Translations under genes and position numbers: made by a program
Notes under the pieces: generated by a model
Databases searched by the model: none
The model's input: only the letters and a program-made list of their open reading frames with translations
What the model was told of the DNA's origin: nothing
Assembly: GCA_964030785.1 (NCBI GenBank)
Contig: OZ034971.1
Coordinates: 36,069,804 to 36,133,803, forward strand
Length of the DNA stretch: 64,000 bases
Reading direction: 5' to 3'
From: Siderastrea siderea
Lineage: Eukaryota; Cnidaria; Anthozoa; Scleractinia; Rhizangiidae
Part shown: positions 20,069-29,688 of the stretch, piece by piece
How positions within the stretch are numbered: the stretch's first letter is position 1
Layout of the letters: each line of letters begins with the position of its first letter

Positions 20069-21455
20069 ATTAACATGTCTTTAGCACCTGACATTATAAA
20101 TTACACTGAATATTGGGTGGAAACCAGTGAAAAAACCTACCAAAAACCTTCACAAAAGCATGTAACAGAAAATTATCCTGTGAAAAACCTGTGAATTTTG
20201 CAGGGTATAAAGATTCGTTTAAAAACATTCTCAATTTATTGGGAACTTTCAGGGAAAAAAGCTGTAAAAGAATTGACCTGTGAAAAAAGAAAACATGAAT
20301 ATTGACTGACAGCAAACCTTTAAAAAAAAGTGCGAAAAAGCCTGTATTAATCATATAATAATATAGTTTCCAATATTGGTAGATTCTTGTAGCCGCCGAT
20401 TTAAAGCTCCATGTACAGAATCAGAATCATTTTAAATTAATTATTGAGACCTCATGAAAATCAGCCTTCAGGTTATCTGTGCATCTAACACAGCGCTAAA
20501 ACTGCACTACATCTTTTAAAACATACAATAAAACTGCAAAAATATAATCTCTTTTTCAGAAATACATTCAAAGCTTGGTTGGTTTGAGTTCATTATCACT
20601 GGACCGACTCTAACAAAGATAAGCTTAAATATATTCAGGATATATCATACTGATATGAATGACTTCACAAAACAGAAATATAAATGAAAGAAAATCTCAG
20701 GTCTTTCAAAAAGTTTTTAATATGTTTCTTTCAGTTGCACAGTCATTTCTTACAGTGTAGTTAGCTAAATTATCTGACTATTATCAAACTACACATCTGA
20801 ACAACAATATATATATATATATAATTATGTTAGCTACCTTGAAAAGTCAGTAAAAGTCCTCAAAAATCTTGGAAAATGGCTTTGCATCCTTCATTTATAT
20901 CCCTCGCATTTGTTCCTTTTAGTGTTCATGGAACTTATCTTTTCCTGCACTGATGTAGGAAAATAGTTTTCTAAGGAAATAACATAACTTTCCAAAAACG
21001 TAATCCAGAAAAGAAATCCGTCTTCTGTAAAACGATTCTGTAAAACAAGAGAAAACGACAGAGAAAACAAGATGGTTGCCAAACACAATTGAGCCTACAG
21101 ATCTGTGGTCAGCTGACTTATTCTCCTGCAAGGACTGGACTCGATTGTGAAAAAGGCGGGAAAATTAACCAATGACAAAGCAGCTTTTGCACGGCTGGCA
21201 AGTTCTTGTGCAAGGCCAAGGCTTTTTTCAACTTTATCGTCTACAACCAGAATGAAAGTCGCTTTGAAAGATGTTTTTGGTTATAAAAGGTAAGATTTTA
21301 TAATTGAAATGTAGCTGAAAAGATTTTCCACCCTGAAACATGGCCAAAAATCCATTTCATTGACCGCTAGGGACTGGGGCGAGTGAATCGCGCTCCGGCG
21401 ATCGAGTTGAACTCGTGAAGGTTGTGTTCTGTGGGTCGTTGTGTCGTGTTACAAG
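20069..21455. other. No recognised gene; AT-rich, promoter side of chromodomain gene
   Basis: Contains AACCTGTGAA-type repeats near 20110-20290 and an (AT)n run at 20807-20822. From about 21100 the base composition rises toward the chromodomain gene's start. No TATA box can be assigned with confidence. Confidence 0.35.
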
Positions 21456-22453
21456 ATGGATTATCGAAAACTCCACTTAACTTCTAGTGTAGATCTTTTG
21501 AGGGACGTGTACACAAACTATCGCCCTAGAAAGCGAAGTCGGAGATCCAGAGTCTTCGAAGTGGAGCGTCTAATTGCCAAGCGAGATCGAGCCGAGGTAA
21601 GCGCCATGTTGTTGTTTGGAAAGTAAGCTTATAAGCTTATAACATGTTTGTCCAACACGATGTTGGACGGAAATATTTGATCGTTTAGCCGGCTTTTTAA
21701 GGTAAGATATCCTGGACTCAAGGAATTCACTTAAATAGCTAAGGGCCTTTGTTATGGTTCTTTCACAGGGTACAGAATATTTGGTGAAGTGGCTGCACTA
21801 TTCAAAATATGAAGCCACGTGGGAGAGTGCTGATGACATTTCCCCCGAGTGTATTCGGTCAGTTAGCCATCATTGATGTTCCAGTGTTCTGTACATTGTA
21901 GCCTATCTTATAGTTGAAGTTAATGTTTAGCAAGTTAGCTTTAGACAGTTGATCAGGTAGATTTCTAACTAGGTTACAACTGTACACCTTATTAGTGATA
22001 TTAAAAATAATTTCATGTGTTGAACATTTTAGGTAGGTGTGGGCAGAGCCAATGAAGAGTGAGAACATTTTTTCTCAATCTTAAGTAAGAGTTCGCCCAC
22101 AGGTGTGGCTGTTGTTGATTTATAAAGGGGTTTTTATTTATTTGTATTTTAGACTATTTGAACATCCTCAACCAGACAGAGTAGAAGTTATACAAGCTTT
22201 AGATCAGTTGAGACAGGCAGTGGAATGCAGACTTAAGTCGAAAAGCTGCCTTCCATTGACCATTGACTTTCCCTCTCATGTATTTCGCTACTTGTTTGAG
22301 GGCAAAGGGGAGGTCAATGGGGGGTGGCTTTACCTCAACCAAGAAGATTTTCGCCAAGAGCATTTTCCAAAGGATTGGGACAGATATCTTGACCATTTTG
22401 GAGAAGGACATAAAATATGCTACCCACTGAGAATGCGACATTTCTTGTCTTAG
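21456..22453 (+). CDS. Chromodomain protein, 176 aa, three exons
   Basis: The exons are 21456-21596, 21769-21857 and 22153-22453, joined by GAG|GTAAGC, TTTCACAG|GGT, CG|GTCAGT and TTTTAG|A with the frame kept throughout (531 nt with stop). Residues about 33-70 form a chromodomain: FEVERLIAKRDRAE, then TEYLVKWLHYSKYEATWE. The aromatic cage positions (F, W, Y/W) are retained, so binding to a methylated lysine such as on histone H3 is likely. The N-terminus is basic (RPRKRSRRSR). The C-terminal 100 residues match no domain I know. The gene is convergent with the transposase gene (682 bp between stops) and lies inside the CACTA-like element. Chromodomains are known on some transposon proteins, where they direct integration to heterochromatin; that role is an inference here. 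Confidence 0.8.
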
Positions 22454-23134
22454 TCTCCAAAGAAATTCATTTATGATGCAAACGGGGTCCTGCAGGAGAG
22501 TCCAAGAGCCTACACAGAGAGGGTTTCTTTCTCTTTTGCTAGGACTCCATGCTAGAGGGTAGGACACCATTATACACATTTTAATTTTCTTTTCGGTTTT
22601 GTTTTGGCCTATAGGCTCTGACAAGTATGGAACCCATGATCCCTCACACTCCGGTTACTAGGATAGTCAAGTTGTGTAACTCCACACATCAGTTTTGCAT
22701 CCTTAATGATTTCTTTGGTGGCCAAGACAAGAATTTTTGCATTCTCAGTGAGTAGCATAACTTCCTCTCAGGTTCTCGAAAATCAGTCAGAGTCACCACA
22801 AACAGTCTTTCTGAGGACTACACTCACCCAGACGATCATACTTCACCAACTTGTTACAGCTTAAAGATAGACTCTTATCGTGACTTCCACTCAGGATGTC
22901 AAAAGGACAGTCAAATATCACAAACAACAGTCCTTTACCCTCTTACACTGCATGATATAACTTGTGGGTTGAAACCATTTCATTTACAATCAGTGCAGTC
23001 AGGTTTGTTATCAGGCTGTTTAAAGCATGATTTATCACAAAACTCATGTTGAAACAGTATAGCTTTTTTGTGGGTGAACGTTCTTGTTCCAAACAATTAT
23101 AATTGCGGAAAACATATTTTACAGGTAGTTACTG

Positions 23135-26100
23135 TTAGTTTTCTTTCATTTCAGTTGAAATGCGCCTGCGTTTTGCACGAGATTCTTTAATCTCAGAATC
23201 CCAGTATTTTTCATTTCTTTTGGTGTATGCTCTTGGCTTTCGTTCTCTTTTCTGCAATGCCCAAAGGCGAGTTTCTGTCTGTAGGACATCTGCTGGACTA
23301 TCCCAATTGTTTGATTTTCTTCTTAATACTCTCCTTGCATCATCATTATTTTTTTCCACTCCTGAAATTAAAATTGCAATTGGGCAGTTAACCATTATAC
23401 ATGTAGACTGCTACTAAAGTGTGTGGAGGCAGGCCTTGAAATATGAAACTTGGTGCTGCTCAACTTTAAGTTTATTCCTGAACAGTACCGACAAAACAAT
23501 ATTAATAGGGGCATTTACAGAAAATAGGATGGAAGGTGAAATACCCTGGTATTTTGCTTAAGAGTAGTGAAAGTCAAATTTTCATTTGTTGTCCTTTGAT
23601 GCTCTACCACAGGCTTAATGTAAAATTGTACCATTGTTATAATCATTTATTATTTATTGGCTGTAGTATGGGAATCATCACAGAGGATATGTAAATTCCT
23701 ACAGTTGTACCTTGTCCAGTAAACTGTTTTACATTAGTATGTCTCTTTATCGCCTCTGGCAGATGGTACACCATGGAATGCATGTAGCATGTTACATTTT
23801 TCTTTCCGTAACCAGTTCGCTTGTTGCCCAAGGAACAAAATAAGTTAACCCAATCTTTTGCCTGTAAAAAGAAAGACACACAGGCTATGTTTACACGGGA
23901 CCGGTCCGGAATGGATCCGGTCTGATTTTCGGACCGGATAGGCCTTCTGTTTACACGGGACCGTTCTGGAACCGGTCCGGAACGGATCCAAAACTGGACC
24001 TGCTGTTTTGCAGGTCCAGTATCGGATCCGATCCAGACCGGTTCCAGAAAGGTCCCGTGTAAACACCTGGACCGGTTCCAAACAGTTCCATGTAAACAGA
24101 AGCCGATCCGGTCCGGTTCGGTTCGGAACGGTTCCGGACCGGTCCCGTGTAAACGTAGCCACAGTCTAGAGCTTATATATTTAGGTAACTTTGAAGTACA
24201 CGACTACAAAATACCTCAAAAAACTTTAAATTCTAAAAATGTTGAGTAAAATTTGTAACAAGGAATTGATTATCAGCACCTTTTGACAGAATGAGGTTGC
24301 ATCAACAGAGCCCATAACTGAAATATAGTCAAAATATAGCTCTCCAAAATCCTGTTGAATAAGAAATATGACGTTGAAAGTTTCATTAACTTGGCATCAG
24401 GAGATGAATGCATTAACATAATATATTTGCCATTAATTTGGTGTTATGAGATGAATGCTTTAACTTCTGGCAGGGAAGGCTGGGTGTGGTGGAGGGTAGG
24501 GATTGGGGCTTCCATATAATAATAATAATAATAATAATAATCTTTAATAATAATAATAATAATCTTTATTGAGGTAGGTACCAGAATCTTGTTCTGGGGC
24601 AGAGTTCTGGTACTGTTAGGAGGTACCATGGGGCTCATCAACAAGCTGTTTGATGTCTTACTTGTCTGGTTTAAAATCCTTGAAAGTACAGTACATTACT
24701 GTGATAAAGGGTCACTTATTTACCCAGGTTCAAATTTATTTATGAACATTTAGTGATCAGTTTATGCAGTTTATCTAAACAGATTACCTGTGAGTCTTCT
24801 TTTTTTAATTTTAGGCAGATTTGACCACAAAATGTTTTTACCTTATTGAAATGGTCTAGTACAGCTAGATCTAATTTCTGTAATTACATGTAGCCACTGG
24901 GAGTCATCTGTTACTTAAATCCATTTAGTGGATTGAAATGATGAGTGGATTTTAATGTACCTTGTATTTTAAAAATGAATTATTTTACATGATCCAATTT
25001 AGAATAAAGTAAAATTGTCAGTTGTAGGCATTGTGTACTGAGGACAGTAGTACAGTGTATTCATACCTTCCATATTTTCTCCACTGTTTTAGCGGTGTCT
25101 TGCCGCAAAAGAGAAGAAAAGTGTTCGGGGAAGGTCTTTAATAACAGTTTTTTCTCATTGCCCATCAGACTGGTCCAGTCGTAGGTACCGGATCCCTTGC
25201 CATCCGCATTCTTTTTCTCCCAGACTTGGAAAGTCACACCACATTTGTTGATGGCATCCACTGCTTTCTTCAAGTGCTGTCCAATTGATGCTGGCTTTGC
25301 AACTTTCTTTTTGTGGGACTCCTCATCATCCCACTCGATCATCTCATCCAAGACATTACGAGTTAGCACATCTGTTACCCTGAGTAACAGATGTAGCTCA
25401 TCAAGGATGATATGATCCAGTGGGATGTTGAGGAGTGGGGGGTTAATACAGCAAAAGTTTTTGTTCCCTCTCTTTAAATGGCAGCATTTTTTGATATCTT
25501 CCAGCGTCCGTTTTTTGAGGCTACTCTCATAGTAATCATCGGGCTTGGACATATCATACCTGTGGTGTGACACATTAGGTTAACTCTCAATTATAAAAGG
25601 TTCAAACATTCCAGATTGAGTACCTCAGTAATTGTTACTAGATTGTTCTCATGCTTTGTCTTCTCATCATGAAATTAACCTGCTAAATTATATTATCGAC
25701 ACACTAACCTTTCATCTTTGTGAATAGTGCACCACAGGCAAGAATAGTTTGACGTGGCACCACTAAGGCCCATGATAAGCAAAAGAAACTGCAAAACAAT
25801 AATTAAAGTTACCTTTTGTAAAGAAAATAAACTGTATAAAAGTGTCCATTATCTGGAAATAATTCTCTCCTTACAATGTACATGACTTTGTATATGGTAT
25901 TTTTGTGGTACAATTTTAGTTTAATTTGCATTTTTGCTTTAGATTCCTTTTCTTCATTGATATGTATTATATCTAGGTATACATCTATAGGAGTGTACTA
26001 CTAACTTTGTAGTCGCCACCTAGGAACAACTCCACAGGTATCTTCTCTTCTCCCACTTCCACAAAGCCGTCTGCTTGTACCTCATTAATTTCTTGAAACA

Positions 26101-27945
26101 CTTCCTTAAAAGATTCAGCTATTGTAGCATAGTCTTCGCTGCCCTTGACTACTGCAATTGTTCGGGTTCCTGTAAAAAAGAATCGGACAAGGAAGGGAAA
26201 GGGCAGACAAAGTGATGGTTAGTTGGGAATTTCTTTCACCCCTATTCTTATCTAAAGAGGGCCCTCGGGTTTCTCCACAGGCTTGTTTTGTGTCTGTTAG
26301 AATTCCACTGCCAAGGAAGTAATGGACTAACACTAATAACCCCTTAATATCCCACACTGAAAAAGAAGTAGCTATATACTTGACTTGATGTTTAAATATT
26401 GTGAGCACATCAGTGACTAATCAGTTCATTATTTATTGACAATTCAGTTATGTTAATTTATGAAACTGTACAGTCATGTACCTCTTGATGACATCACTTC
26501 TTCTTTTTGCAGAATTGAGAATGACACAATAACATAGTTACTGTTTCGTGTCATTCTCGCACCATCCCCACTGACCTTCACTTTGATTGGCTCTTTGGCA
26601 TCAATCAATGAATCACTTTCTCCTCTCTACAATAGTGGAATTATGGAAATTAATTTCATTATACAGTATGAGTGGAAGAACTGTGAATGCCAAAAATATC
26701 TTTGTTAAGTTAATTATGTTGGAAGGTCCTTTTAATACTTTGTTGGTTTTATGCTTTTAGTAGATCTCACAGTCATTGTTTCCAATAAACATTTCATTTC
26801 ATTTCATTTTCTTGTAACATATATATCACAAAAACATCTCCAGGAAGAGTGAATGAAATACCTACCAAATCAGTTATCTGCTCCCTGAGCAACTCCTTAA
26901 ATGAAGTTTGTACTCCTGGTGCTGTTCCTGGTGTGACTGTGAGGTGACGCATTGCATTCAAATTGCTTTTGCACTGCTTTACTAAATACGATCTTGGTAA
27001 ACCGTCAAATATCATGGTGAGGTTATGGTAGAACTCGTCACTTACACCAAACCGGTCCATCAAAAATAAAACTTCTTCCACCTTTTTCCTCTCATCGTCT
27101 GGCAGTGTTAAATATTTAGAACTGTTGCAGGTGTTGCCAGTGTCGACTGTTGTGCTGGTGGTGTTGGGAAAGTCATCTAAGCTTAAGTTATGCTTGGTTT
27201 TGTTGTTTTCCTCTACCTCTAAACTCTTTAATTTCAGACCATAAGCGTTCATGAACCATAGAGCCTTCTGTGCCCTAGTTTTTAGGTCTCTCAGGTACCT
27301 CCATCTGGTAGTGGGACTCACTGTTGACAAGTCCTTCCCATTCTTGTCAGTCTCCTTGTTTTTTTCCAGTTTTTCAATGTATTGTTTCAGTGATTCAGTT
27401 TCAGATAACAGATCATCTTCTCTTAACTTTTTTTGTTTAACCTCCTCAATGAGTTCTTCATATAATTTTTTGTTTTCTTTTTCTAGATTTTTTTTCGCTT
27501 CTGTCTCCAACTTTAAATCCTTATTTAACCTCTCAACTGACTCCACTTCTGCCACAAAAATGTTCATTTTGTAGCTCCCCAACAAAAGATCTCTTTTTTT
27601 GCGGCCAGAAGCGGCTTTAAAACGGTTGGAAATAAAAGAGCATTTGACTCGGAGCCGCTCCTCGATTCTTACAGCATCCTGTTTGACAGCAAACCCACAT
27701 CCAGGGATGTTTTCATTCAAAAGCTTCACAAATGAGACAAAATCCGTGGTATTTTTTTGAATCGTTTCCCAGCACAGTAACATTGACAGCGGAATGTCGA
27801 TACAACAAAACGATTCATTGTTTTTTTGCTTTTGTTCTAGAACGTAATTAAGCTGATTATTTCTCCAAGGCTGAACAGATAATCCCCTGATGTCTTGCGT
27901 GACATAGTCGGGAAGAAAGCTGCTTAAAACGGGGGTATCAGACAT
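23135..27945 (-). CDS. DDE transposase of CACTA/RAG1-Transib-like type, 833 aa, nine exons
   Basis: Exons: 27945-26866, 26626-26482, 26169-26006, 25788-25709, 25559-25067, 24877-24788, 24351-24280, 23861-23711, 23361-23135. All have GT/AG borders, no internal stop, and a total of 2,502 nt. Residues 1-360 form an N-terminal region with a coiled coil (about 140-215). The core follows: SGDGAR (D381) before a YVIVSFSIL strand, GGDYK (D461), C480-x2-C483 (CLWC), a conserved DELHLLLR (543-550), H736-x4-H741 (YMHSMVYH) and GVEKNNDD (E761). In RAG1 the acidic triad and the Cys-Cys/His-His zinc site have the same order: D708 to C727 and D461 to C480 are both 19, and H942 to E962 and H741 to E761 are both 20. 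It should cut and join the element's ends in the nucleus. It appears intact. Confidence 0.85.
23883..24160. mobile_element. 278-bp MITE in transposase intron 7
   Basis: The ends GGCTATGTTTACACGGGACC and, reversed, GGCTACGTTTACACGGGACC are near-perfect inverted repeats. The interior is filled with GGACCGGTCCGGAAC-type palindromic motifs. ACA borders both sides and may be a 3-bp duplication. It sits in the intron between exons 7 and 8, so it should not disturb the protein. Confidence 0.8.
24515..24645 (-). mobile_element. Retroelement 3' end with (ATT)n tail
   Basis: On the minus strand GGTACCTACCTCAATAAAGA is followed by ATT repeats, again AAGATT, and more ATT repeats. A unique 3' end ending in a short tandem tail is typical of SINE or LINE insertions. 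It lies in the intron between exons 6 and 7 of the transposase gene. Confidence 0.5.
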
Positions 27946-28509
27946 GATTACCGGTTTTTTAACAACTTCGTAGTAGTAGAGTTTCTACTACGTTTTCATT
28001 CATTCACTGATGAATGAAATACTACAAGCTGCCAAATTTGTCGCGCGTTTATTTATATTTCGCGGCAATTTTTATCTTCGCCAATAATGGGCTTTCTTTC
28101 ATCGATCAACTATTGTGTTAATCAGACCAATCACGAGTCCTGTATTATAAGAAACTAGTACTCAGGCCTACTTCAAATGATGAGAGCAAAATGGCGGCGA
28201 GAAATGAAGAAAGATGGTTTGAAGTGAAGACGGTTTTCAGCTGAATTTTAACGCGCGGACATCGGCGAATGCTTCACGTGGTCACGCTACTGTGTGGGTT
28301 ATATTACGACCTGAATTTTAAGCTTTGTTGTTGTGAGACGGGAAGGACGAGGATTCATTTATGGACGTCAAAAACACTGACAAGTTAAAGAGATGACTGT
28401 GTACTTGAAGATTCCGATCGAACAAATGGGAATTTGTAGATAGCGCTGTCGGCAGAAGGCATGGAAAAATGTCATTTTGAAGCACAATGATCGAGTTTGT
28501 AGAGATCTG
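27946..28509. promoter_or_regulatory. Putative divergent promoter region
   Basis: It separates the transposase start (minus, 27945) from a plus-strand first-exon candidate. It holds a hairpin, CGTAGTAG/CTACTACG, near 27969-27992, a CCAAT (28130-28134), and an AAAATGGCGGCGAG motif near 28189 resembling YY1-type promoter sites. Promoter function is inferred from position. Confidence 0.3.
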
Positions 28510-29688
28510 ATGGGCGACGAAGGTAAGTTGTATTGCATTTGTTTTTCTTTTTCTGGGAAGCGCGGAATTTGAAGCTACAAATTCAATACTGCCAAAACTA
28601 ATATCTAAAGAAGTTCTACTTTCAATATCAGATCGAACAAATTGTTCAGGTTCGTATCAGCCTAAGTTATTTATCGTACAAGTTTTACCTCCCCACATTT
28701 CTCTGTAAAATTACGCTGTTTGAATTTATCGTTTTTTTCTAAGTGTCGATAGCTAGTGCGCGTGCGTGAAATTTAATTTTGGACATGTTCCTAATGATTC
28801 ATGTGGAATCTTTCATTAGGTGCTAGTTTGATCAGTTTAATTCCAGTGTAATGTTATAAACAAAGTTTAATCCAGCTTCTCTTTTACTAGCTTAAAAGTT
28901 TAAGATTTAAGCTCAAGTTGTTCTGCTTCATTTATTGAATGGAAAGGTCCAGGTTTATTTTTCTGTCTGCCTGTTTGATTCAAGAAACAAGAAGAATGGG
29001 CTCACTTAACTATTTAATTATTATCAAAACCTTACACTAAAATGCAAAGCTAAGTCTGGTCAATCTTTTGAATACTGACTAAAAAATATTGAAAATGCTG
29101 AAGCCAAGCATGGATCATTGCACTGAGGTACAAATCTTGCAAGTTTAGTACATGTTACTCATCGATGTTTTGATTAAAGCAATCAAATTATTGACACTTA
29201 AGCCTGGTGTCCAATTACAGTCCTCTTAGCCCTATAGTCATACCTAATTTAAAACTTCCTATCTGTTAAACCAAATTGTTTTTTGAAGTTAGCAGACAAT
29301 TGGGACGTTCCATTTTTTATCCGAACCCCCCCTAAGGATGGCAAGTTTCTGCACAAAGAGGGTGGGATTTTAAATCAAAGGAGCCGCCAAAAAATTAACC
29401 CTTCGGAAATTTTTTACAAAGGTGCCACCAAAAAATGAATCCTTCGGGTGTTTTTCTTTAAAGGGTGCCGCCAAAACTTTGAGGGGTCGGAATCCTGCCA
29501 TCCTTGGGGGGGGGGGGGGGGGTGCAGATAAAAAATGGAACGACCCATTGCCATGATGTAAGTATATCACTCATATAATATTTAATATTATGTAAACTCT
29601 CACAGGGATTGGAAGTCTTATGAAGATGTTAAAAATAGCCTGTTTGCAGTTTGGAACAAGGTAGAGTCAATCCAATTTGACAATGAAT
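28198..29688 (+). CDS. Candidate two-exon 5' gene part, unknown
   Basis: A first exon ending GACGAAG|GTAAGT (donor at 28523, with ATG at 28510) could splice to 29606-29688 (acceptor TCTCACAG, donor AATGTGAGTAA). Exon 2 reads DWKSYEDVKNSLFAVWNKVE in one frame. That frame is not the one set by the ATG at 28510, so the start is unresolved. A later acceptor-bounded stretch at 30287-30343 reads VSLAQQLQGEAVNVYADP and stops. No domain recognised; it could be a decayed cargo gene. Confidence 0.3.
29302..29547. mobile_element. Poly-G MITE with GGAACG inverted ends
   Basis: The left end reads GACGTTCCATTTTTTATCCG; the right end, reversed, GTCGTTCCATTTTTTATCTG. A C-rich stretch on the left is mirrored by an 18-base G run on the right. 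Non-coding interior with repeated GCCGCCAAAA. Confidence 0.7.

Follow-up and report, generated by a model that had tools for sequence, protein, structure and literature searches.

The 64,000-nucleotide stretch of the Siderastrea siderea genome analysed here (contig OZ034971.1, positions 36,069,804 to 36,133,803, forward strand; hereafter the window, numbered from its first letter) very probably carries a copy of a DNA transposon of the cut-and-paste kind that has moved recently, that encodes a RAG1-type DDE transposase together with a chromodomain protein and that seems to insert without duplicating its target. This reading is supported by inverted ends starting 5'-CAT, two genes arranged tail-to-tail, four near-identical copies with open frames, and unoccupied sites in the genome that correspond to the joined flanks of copies, with exact insertion at three sites from two families. 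A preliminary description, made from the window sequence alone, had noted a transposase core spaced like that of RAG1.

Copies and ends of the element

Three further copies (C5, C173 and C4), which together with the window copy make up family f1, show 98.4-98.6% identity to it over approximately 7.1 kb and 98.9-99.0% to one another. All four have their left end at the same base. On the right, the window and C173 copies are complete; C4 lacks the last 7 bases and C5 the last 13. In each of the four, the transposase frame is open with identical splice sites and the chromodomain frame is open to the same stop. Pairwise divergence of the transposase among these copies is 0.003-0.005 at nonsynonymous sites (dN) and 0.016-0.029 at synonymous sites (dS). 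The element ends read 5'-CATGGCCAAAA at 21339 and 5'-CATGTCCAAAA at 28787; as both start with 5'-CATG and not with CAC, the earlier statement that the terminal repeats point to CACTA does not stand.

The family is not confined to these four copies. A genome search with a homologue as query gave 77 matches, counted exon by exon, while searches with the f1 ends found eight places for the left end and four for the right. Five lineages have ends of the form 5'-CAT...ATG-3', with 14-19 of 20 bases matching between the two ends; positions 8-10 of the terminal inverted repeat (TIR) are AAA in f1 and AGA, AAG or AGC in the other lineages. The end base is constant in all three copies of family f2 and in three of the four of f3, the copy f3_c11 having lost both ends. 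L029 and L032 are the same element (98.9% identity over 5,004 bp), although the outermost bases of L029 do not fit, and a terminal-repeat scan of L030, L031 and L033 gave no convincing ends. At C6:41.9 Mb, three similar stretches (L036-L038) contain a sequence resembling the f1 left end (87-93% over 45-46 bases) and are apparently one old copy that was duplicated along with its surroundings. Two copies of f2 (L023-L026), at C5:51.38 Mb and C13:29.9 Mb, are identical over 11,205 bp, approximately 4.6 kb longer than the C4 copy, and have differing flanks, which points to very recent movement or copying.

Target sites

Ten copies with both ends were included in the target-site count, which excluded L029, the C4 and C5 copies of f1 (short right ends) and f3_c11 (ends lost). 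Direct repeats of 3 bp (CTC) flank L032 and repeats of 2 bp flank f2_c5 and f3_c8, the remaining copies having 0-1 bp. The joined flanks of the ten copies were then used to search the genome, 40 of 2197 candidates were scored and 10 of these 40 were aligned to the joined flanks. Two unoccupied sites for f1_w (216 and 215 of 220 positions matching), one for f1_c173 (218 matches) and four for f2_c4 (217-220 of 220) aligned free of gaps, with 0 bases gained or lost at insertion. A target duplication of CATG, the sequence present at both ends of the window element, was considered and rejected because the aligned unoccupied sites have no CATG at the junction and because the f2 ends (CATC...GATG) are inverted and not direct.

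Missing duplications might alternatively arise if excised elements were captured by end-joining at chance breaks, with no stagger-free joining by the transposase. RAG-type enzymes release blunt signal ends, and blunt joining of such a free element would equally give gap-free, duplication-free junctions; the ragged ends of some copies (the f1 right ends that are 7 and 13 bases short, and f3_c11) also fit this explanation. We nevertheless consider it unlikely, if worth keeping in view, since no bases were lost or gained at f1_w, f1_c173 and f2_c4, whereas end-joining usually trims or adds bases, and since the end base is constant in f1 (4/4 left, 2/4 right), f2 (3/3) and f3 (3/4).

Transposase gene and its homologues

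The transposase gene, rebuilt on the minus strand at 27945-23135, is intact and spliced, with eight exons encoding 803 residues and all seven introns of the GT-AG type. The preliminary description had the span and the spliced structure right but counted nine exons. It had also placed D381, D461, C480 and C483 exactly as they are found in the rebuilt protein, while its H736, H741 and E761 are in fact H706, H711 and E731, 30 residues lower; aligned homologues do not contain 30 extra residues at this point. The spacings that it reported (19 from D to C, H-x4-H, and 20 from H to E) hold. Its coiled-coil N-terminus is consistent with the predicted model of the homologue P0002, in which long helices precede the core, and with a phmmer search of the Protein Data Bank (PDB) using the window transposase alone, which gave three matches, all of them coiled-coil chance matches. 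Pfam gave no match to the window transposase at E ≤ 10, and an NCBIfam search with five homologues found nothing relevant.

A public protein search with residues 200-803, in which the best 7,993 candidates were scored, identified 124 relatives. Identity to the window transposase is 33-53% for the 120 listed, which include proteins of stony corals, sea anemones, octocorals, an acorn worm and a sponge; of the named sources, anthozoans are the nearest. In an alignment of 57 of the 124 (A3), the catalytic residues on which the preliminary description depended are retained: the first aspartate (D381) in 56/57, the second (D461) in 55/57 and the glutamate (E731, its E761) in 55/55 non-gapped members. 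Each zinc cysteine is present in 56/56 non-gapped members, and both zinc histidines, as well as the D and H of a DELH motif that lines up with DALH in RAG1, are present in 57/57. Spacings are equally constant (19 in 56/56, H-x4-H in 57/57 and 20 in 54/55). Because it is near-invariant among these 57 homologues, the DDE and zinc residue pattern is not due to chance. At E ≤ 1, some homologues (e.g. P0090 and P0106) also have a SAP (13/57) or Rho_N-like (14/57) DNA-binding domain at the C-terminus; none was found in the window transposase with Pfam at E ≤ 10.

Chromodomain gene

The second gene is encoded on the plus strand and converges with the transposase gene. Its three exons encode a protein of 176 residues that gives a Pfam Chromo match (E-value: 3.9e-14) but neither a kelch nor a PHD match at E ≤ 1, so that the RAG2L gene expected of a RAGL element is not found here. 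Using tblastn, a convergent chromodomain gene was found in f1, f2, f3, L034 and L029/L032, whose transposases (other than that of f1) are approximately 30-64% identical to that of the window in aligned pieces. As L029 and L032 are one element, the gene is present in five of eight lineages. One protein from each of the five lineages was compared with Pfam and all five pass the Chromo cut-off; judged by eye, an intron splits the chromodomain at the same place in all of them. A profile search with the chromodomain protein gave 59 proteins, and relatives with both the chromodomain and the C-terminal part occur in Montipora foliosa, Dendronephthya gigantea, Actinia tenebrosa and Paramuricea clavata (the last a partial record).

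A whole-protein model of the relative P0126 (predicted local distance difference test score: 72.8) had no PDB match at E ≤ 0.001; its nearest predicted folds are the chromodomains of CDYL2, CBX7 and HP1 (best E-value: 1.1e-3), and nearly all of the 50 listed matches are chromodomains. With this model, no relative of known fold was found for the C-terminal part. By eye, aromatic residues occupy the three positions of the putative methyl-lysine cage. A 51-nt inverted repeat (86%) has one arm at the 3' end of the gene (22416-22466) and the other past it (22709-22759).

Relationship to RAG1, Transib and EnSpm/CACTA

When the family profile was compared with PDB sequences, RAG1 was matched at an E-value of 4.9e-6, and no HzTransib was present among the 60 listed of the 65 sequence matches. 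Structure comparison used the predicted fold of P0002, which corresponds to the RAG1/Transib core with its zinc residues and matches RAG1 459 to 1007. RAG1 is thus the nearest in both sequence and solved structure, with P element, ISCth4 and Hermes structures well below it. We know of no solved CMC (Chapaev, Mirage, CACTA) structure in the PDB, so the absence of these groups among the fold matches carries no information.

The RAG1-type core proposed in the preliminary description is therefore supported by profile and predicted fold far beyond the evidence first offered for it, while the two equal gaps that it stressed are not peculiar to RAG1. Two EnSpm transposases from the same genome (L049 and L050) have D-19-C, DPMH and H-20-E, but H-x3-H, which leaves H-x4-H as the sole cited spacing that separates RAG1 and the window family from them. 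H-x4-H and overall sequence together lean towards RAG1 over these two proteins. In the available text of PMC12730594, C(2)C and H(3-4)H motifs are described as common to EnSpm, Mirage, Chapaev and Transib (traced to a 2011 paper) and as carried by RAG1 too, in a group named CMCT; target duplications are 2-5 bp, termini are mostly CA..TG, and the lineage ESTA resembles RAG1 by HHpred. The window family has the DDE, C(2)C and H(3-4)H set between the second D and E, and 5'-CA..TG-3' termini (CATG...CATG in the window element), but no 2-5 bp duplication (0 bp at f1_w, f1_c173 and f2_c4; 0-1 bp at f3_c6). For this reason we file it as a CMCT relative with the motif set and not as one of the described lineages.

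It could also be argued that the element is a member of Transib/RAGL in which RAG2L has been exchanged for a chromodomain protein. RAG1 is its nearest match, the convergent two-gene layout is like that of RAGL, the predicted fold of P0002 has the RAG1-type core with DDE and ZnC2/ZnH2 residues, and AAA at TIR positions 8-10 of f1 is found in protostome RAGL ends as well. These positions differ in the other lineages, however, and the TIRs start with CAT instead of CAC, there is no 5-bp duplication and matches to Pfam RAG1 (PF12940) are poor: P0002 (18.2 bits) and P0006 (12.7 bits) are below the cut-off of 25 bits, and 7/57 A3 members match at E ≤ 1 (best 9.7e-5). The genome contains seven separate PF12940 matches above the cut-off, none at the window locus; those above this curated cut-off include sequences at C2:37686291-37688056 and C2:29455990-29457277. 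We consider this explanation improbable. DUF1280 (PF06918), with which RAG1 has been grouped (PMC3985635, available text), is likewise matched weakly (5/57 A3 members at E ≤ 1, best 4.3e-5).

An ordinary, drifted cnidarian EnSpm/CACTA element with nothing distinctive would account for the outermost bases (CA..TG) and for D-19-C, DxxH and H-20-E, all common to L049 and L050. This is more doubtful still, as the window protein has no Pfam match at E ≤ 10, none of the 127 genome matches to Transposase_21 (PF02992), the canonical EnSpm domain, is at the window locus, and the family profile, with database size kept equal, gives L049 and L050 E-values of 51 and 170. Nor does the element have 5'-CAC..GTG-3' ends, its own being 5'-CATG, and f1 and f2 show no target duplication of approximately 3 bp. 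That the intact gene with its introns is a host gene arising by domestication, or an open frame due to chance, is refuted almost beyond doubt by the presence in unrelated places of four near-identical copies that share their left end, by unoccupied target sites and by the many divergent copies in the genome.

Table 1. Coordinates of the element and its parts in the window
Feature	Position	Strand	Remarks
Whole element	21339..28787	.	7,449 bp including foreign insert; extent defined by three further near-identical copies
Left terminal inverted repeat	21339..21358	+	CATGGCCAAAAATCCATTTC; 16/20 positions match reverse complement of right end
Right terminal inverted repeat	28768..28787	-	CATGTCCAAAATTAAATTTC (read inward); complete in window and C173 copies
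Transposase exon 1	26866..27945	-	N-terminal region, coiled coil, start of DNA-binding part; open frame, GT donor
Transposase exon 2	26482..26626	-	Contains D381
Transposase exon 3	26006..26169	-	D461 just before its end
Transposase exon 4	25709..25788	-	Contains C480 and C483
Transposase exon 5	25067..25559	-	Contains DELH motif (D543)
Transposase exon 6	24280..24351	-	24 codons; agrees with homologues
Transposase exon 7	23711..23861	-	Contains H706 and H711
Transposase exon 8	23135..23361	-	Contains E731 and stop
Chromodomain gene exon 1	21456..21596	+	Start, basic stretch, first half of chromodomain; similar layout in other lineages
Chromodomain gene exon 2	21769..21857	+	Second half of chromodomain
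Chromodomain gene exon 3	22153..22453	+	Conserved C-terminal part; ends in TAG
Foreign palindromic insert	23883..24160	.	Not part of the element; in intron between exons 6 and 7; inverted repeats

The foreign insert has ends GCTATGTTTACACGGGACC... and is flanked by a CACAG (or ACA) repeat. It is present in the window copy alone, the other three copies lacking 281 bases (the insert and duplicated bases).

Proposed mechanism and significance

We propose that the transposase dimerises via its coiled coil and pairs both element ends, which the D381-D461-E731 metal site would then cut. The ends would be joined to directly opposite target phosphates, leaving no gap and hence no duplication; to our knowledge, this would be new for an enzyme with the RAG1-type fold. 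The chromodomain protein may read a methylated histone lysine, while its conserved C-terminal part may bring the transposase to a given kind of chromatin or enable it there, a role that would parallel that of RAG2, with its PHD finger, in serving RAG1.

Several observations weigh against a RAG1-type element that has a chromodomain partner and inserts without duplication. Unoccupied sites were found for four of the ten joined-flank queries among the 40 of 2197 candidates that were scored. The three for f3_c6 align with a gap of 1 bp that falls on the junction or next to it, allowing a 1-bp duplication, and the CTC repeat of L032 and the two 2-bp repeats mean that short duplications are possible in some lineages. 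Fold prediction was made for P0002 and not for the spliced window protein, and as no CMC structure is known to us in the PDB, any CMC relative would likewise have RAG1/Transib as its nearest match. The chromodomain gene was not seen in the 10-kb stretches of L030, L031 and L033, which are without known ends. In all four f1 copies, the TAG at 22451-22453 shortens the chromodomain protein by approximately 34 residues; P0122, f2, f3 and L034 read W at this position.

A literature search of titles and abstract openings, with Repbase outside its reach, found no description of the window family or of a chromodomain-bearing RAG1-like or EnSpm transposon. We tentatively suggest, as a possibility somewhat short of even, that the family is a new superfamily-level lineage that combines a RAG1-type transposase, a separate convergent histone reader and integration with a 0-bp stagger. 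Pairing of a RAG1-type enzyme with a chromatin reader would in that case be a recurring design, with a chromodomain in this family and PHD in RAG2, and might predate RAG itself. The way in which RAG1 came to need a partner that reads chromatin is still a gap in accounts of how V(D)J recombination arose. A family with many copies that seems to fall outside RAG/Transib, shares the type of core and the tail-to-tail layout and has another histone reader offers an independent comparison. The copies look young enough for tests in cells and, if the 0-bp joining is true, the enzyme would make a useful tool for integrating DNA with no duplication left behind.

Comparison with known systems

Like EnSpm/CACTA elements (Transposase_21), the window family has DDE residues with C(2)C and H(3-4)H, D-19-C and H-20-E; the profile comparisons made with them gave no significant match, and its ends and duplication differ. 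Spy transposons have a PHIS-type transposase, unlike the RAG1-like transposase of the window. Compared with HzTransib structures (6pqx and 6pqn), the family matches these less well than RAG1. With DUF1280 (PF06918) there is a weak profile match, and no element is described in the available text on that family (PMC3985635). ESTA, Plavaka and Lanisha of the CMCT clade have the same motif set and mostly CA..TG ends but make 2-5 bp duplications, and are also set apart by their description in the available text of PMC12730594, from which the word 'chromodomain' is absent.

Transib and RAGL make 5-bp target duplications, RAGL ends are 5'-CAC, and the PHD of sea urchin RAG2L binds methylated H3K4, as far as the available text of PMC7204232 describes them. 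The window family differs from RAGL/ProtoRAG, as they appear in that text, in having a chromodomain in place of kelch and PHD, 5'-CAT in place of 5'-CAC, a duplication of 0 in place of 5 bp, and another N-terminus. Judged against the same text, it resembles RAGL/ProtoRAG and RAG1-RAG2 in the predicted core fold (RAG1 459 to 1007) with its DDE and ZnC2/ZnH2 residues, and RAGL/ProtoRAG in having two convergent genes, the second of which encodes a protein with a histone-reading type of domain. We would regard this parallel between a convergent transposase and histone reader and RAG1L-RAG2L as a likeness of design, and make no claim of common descent.

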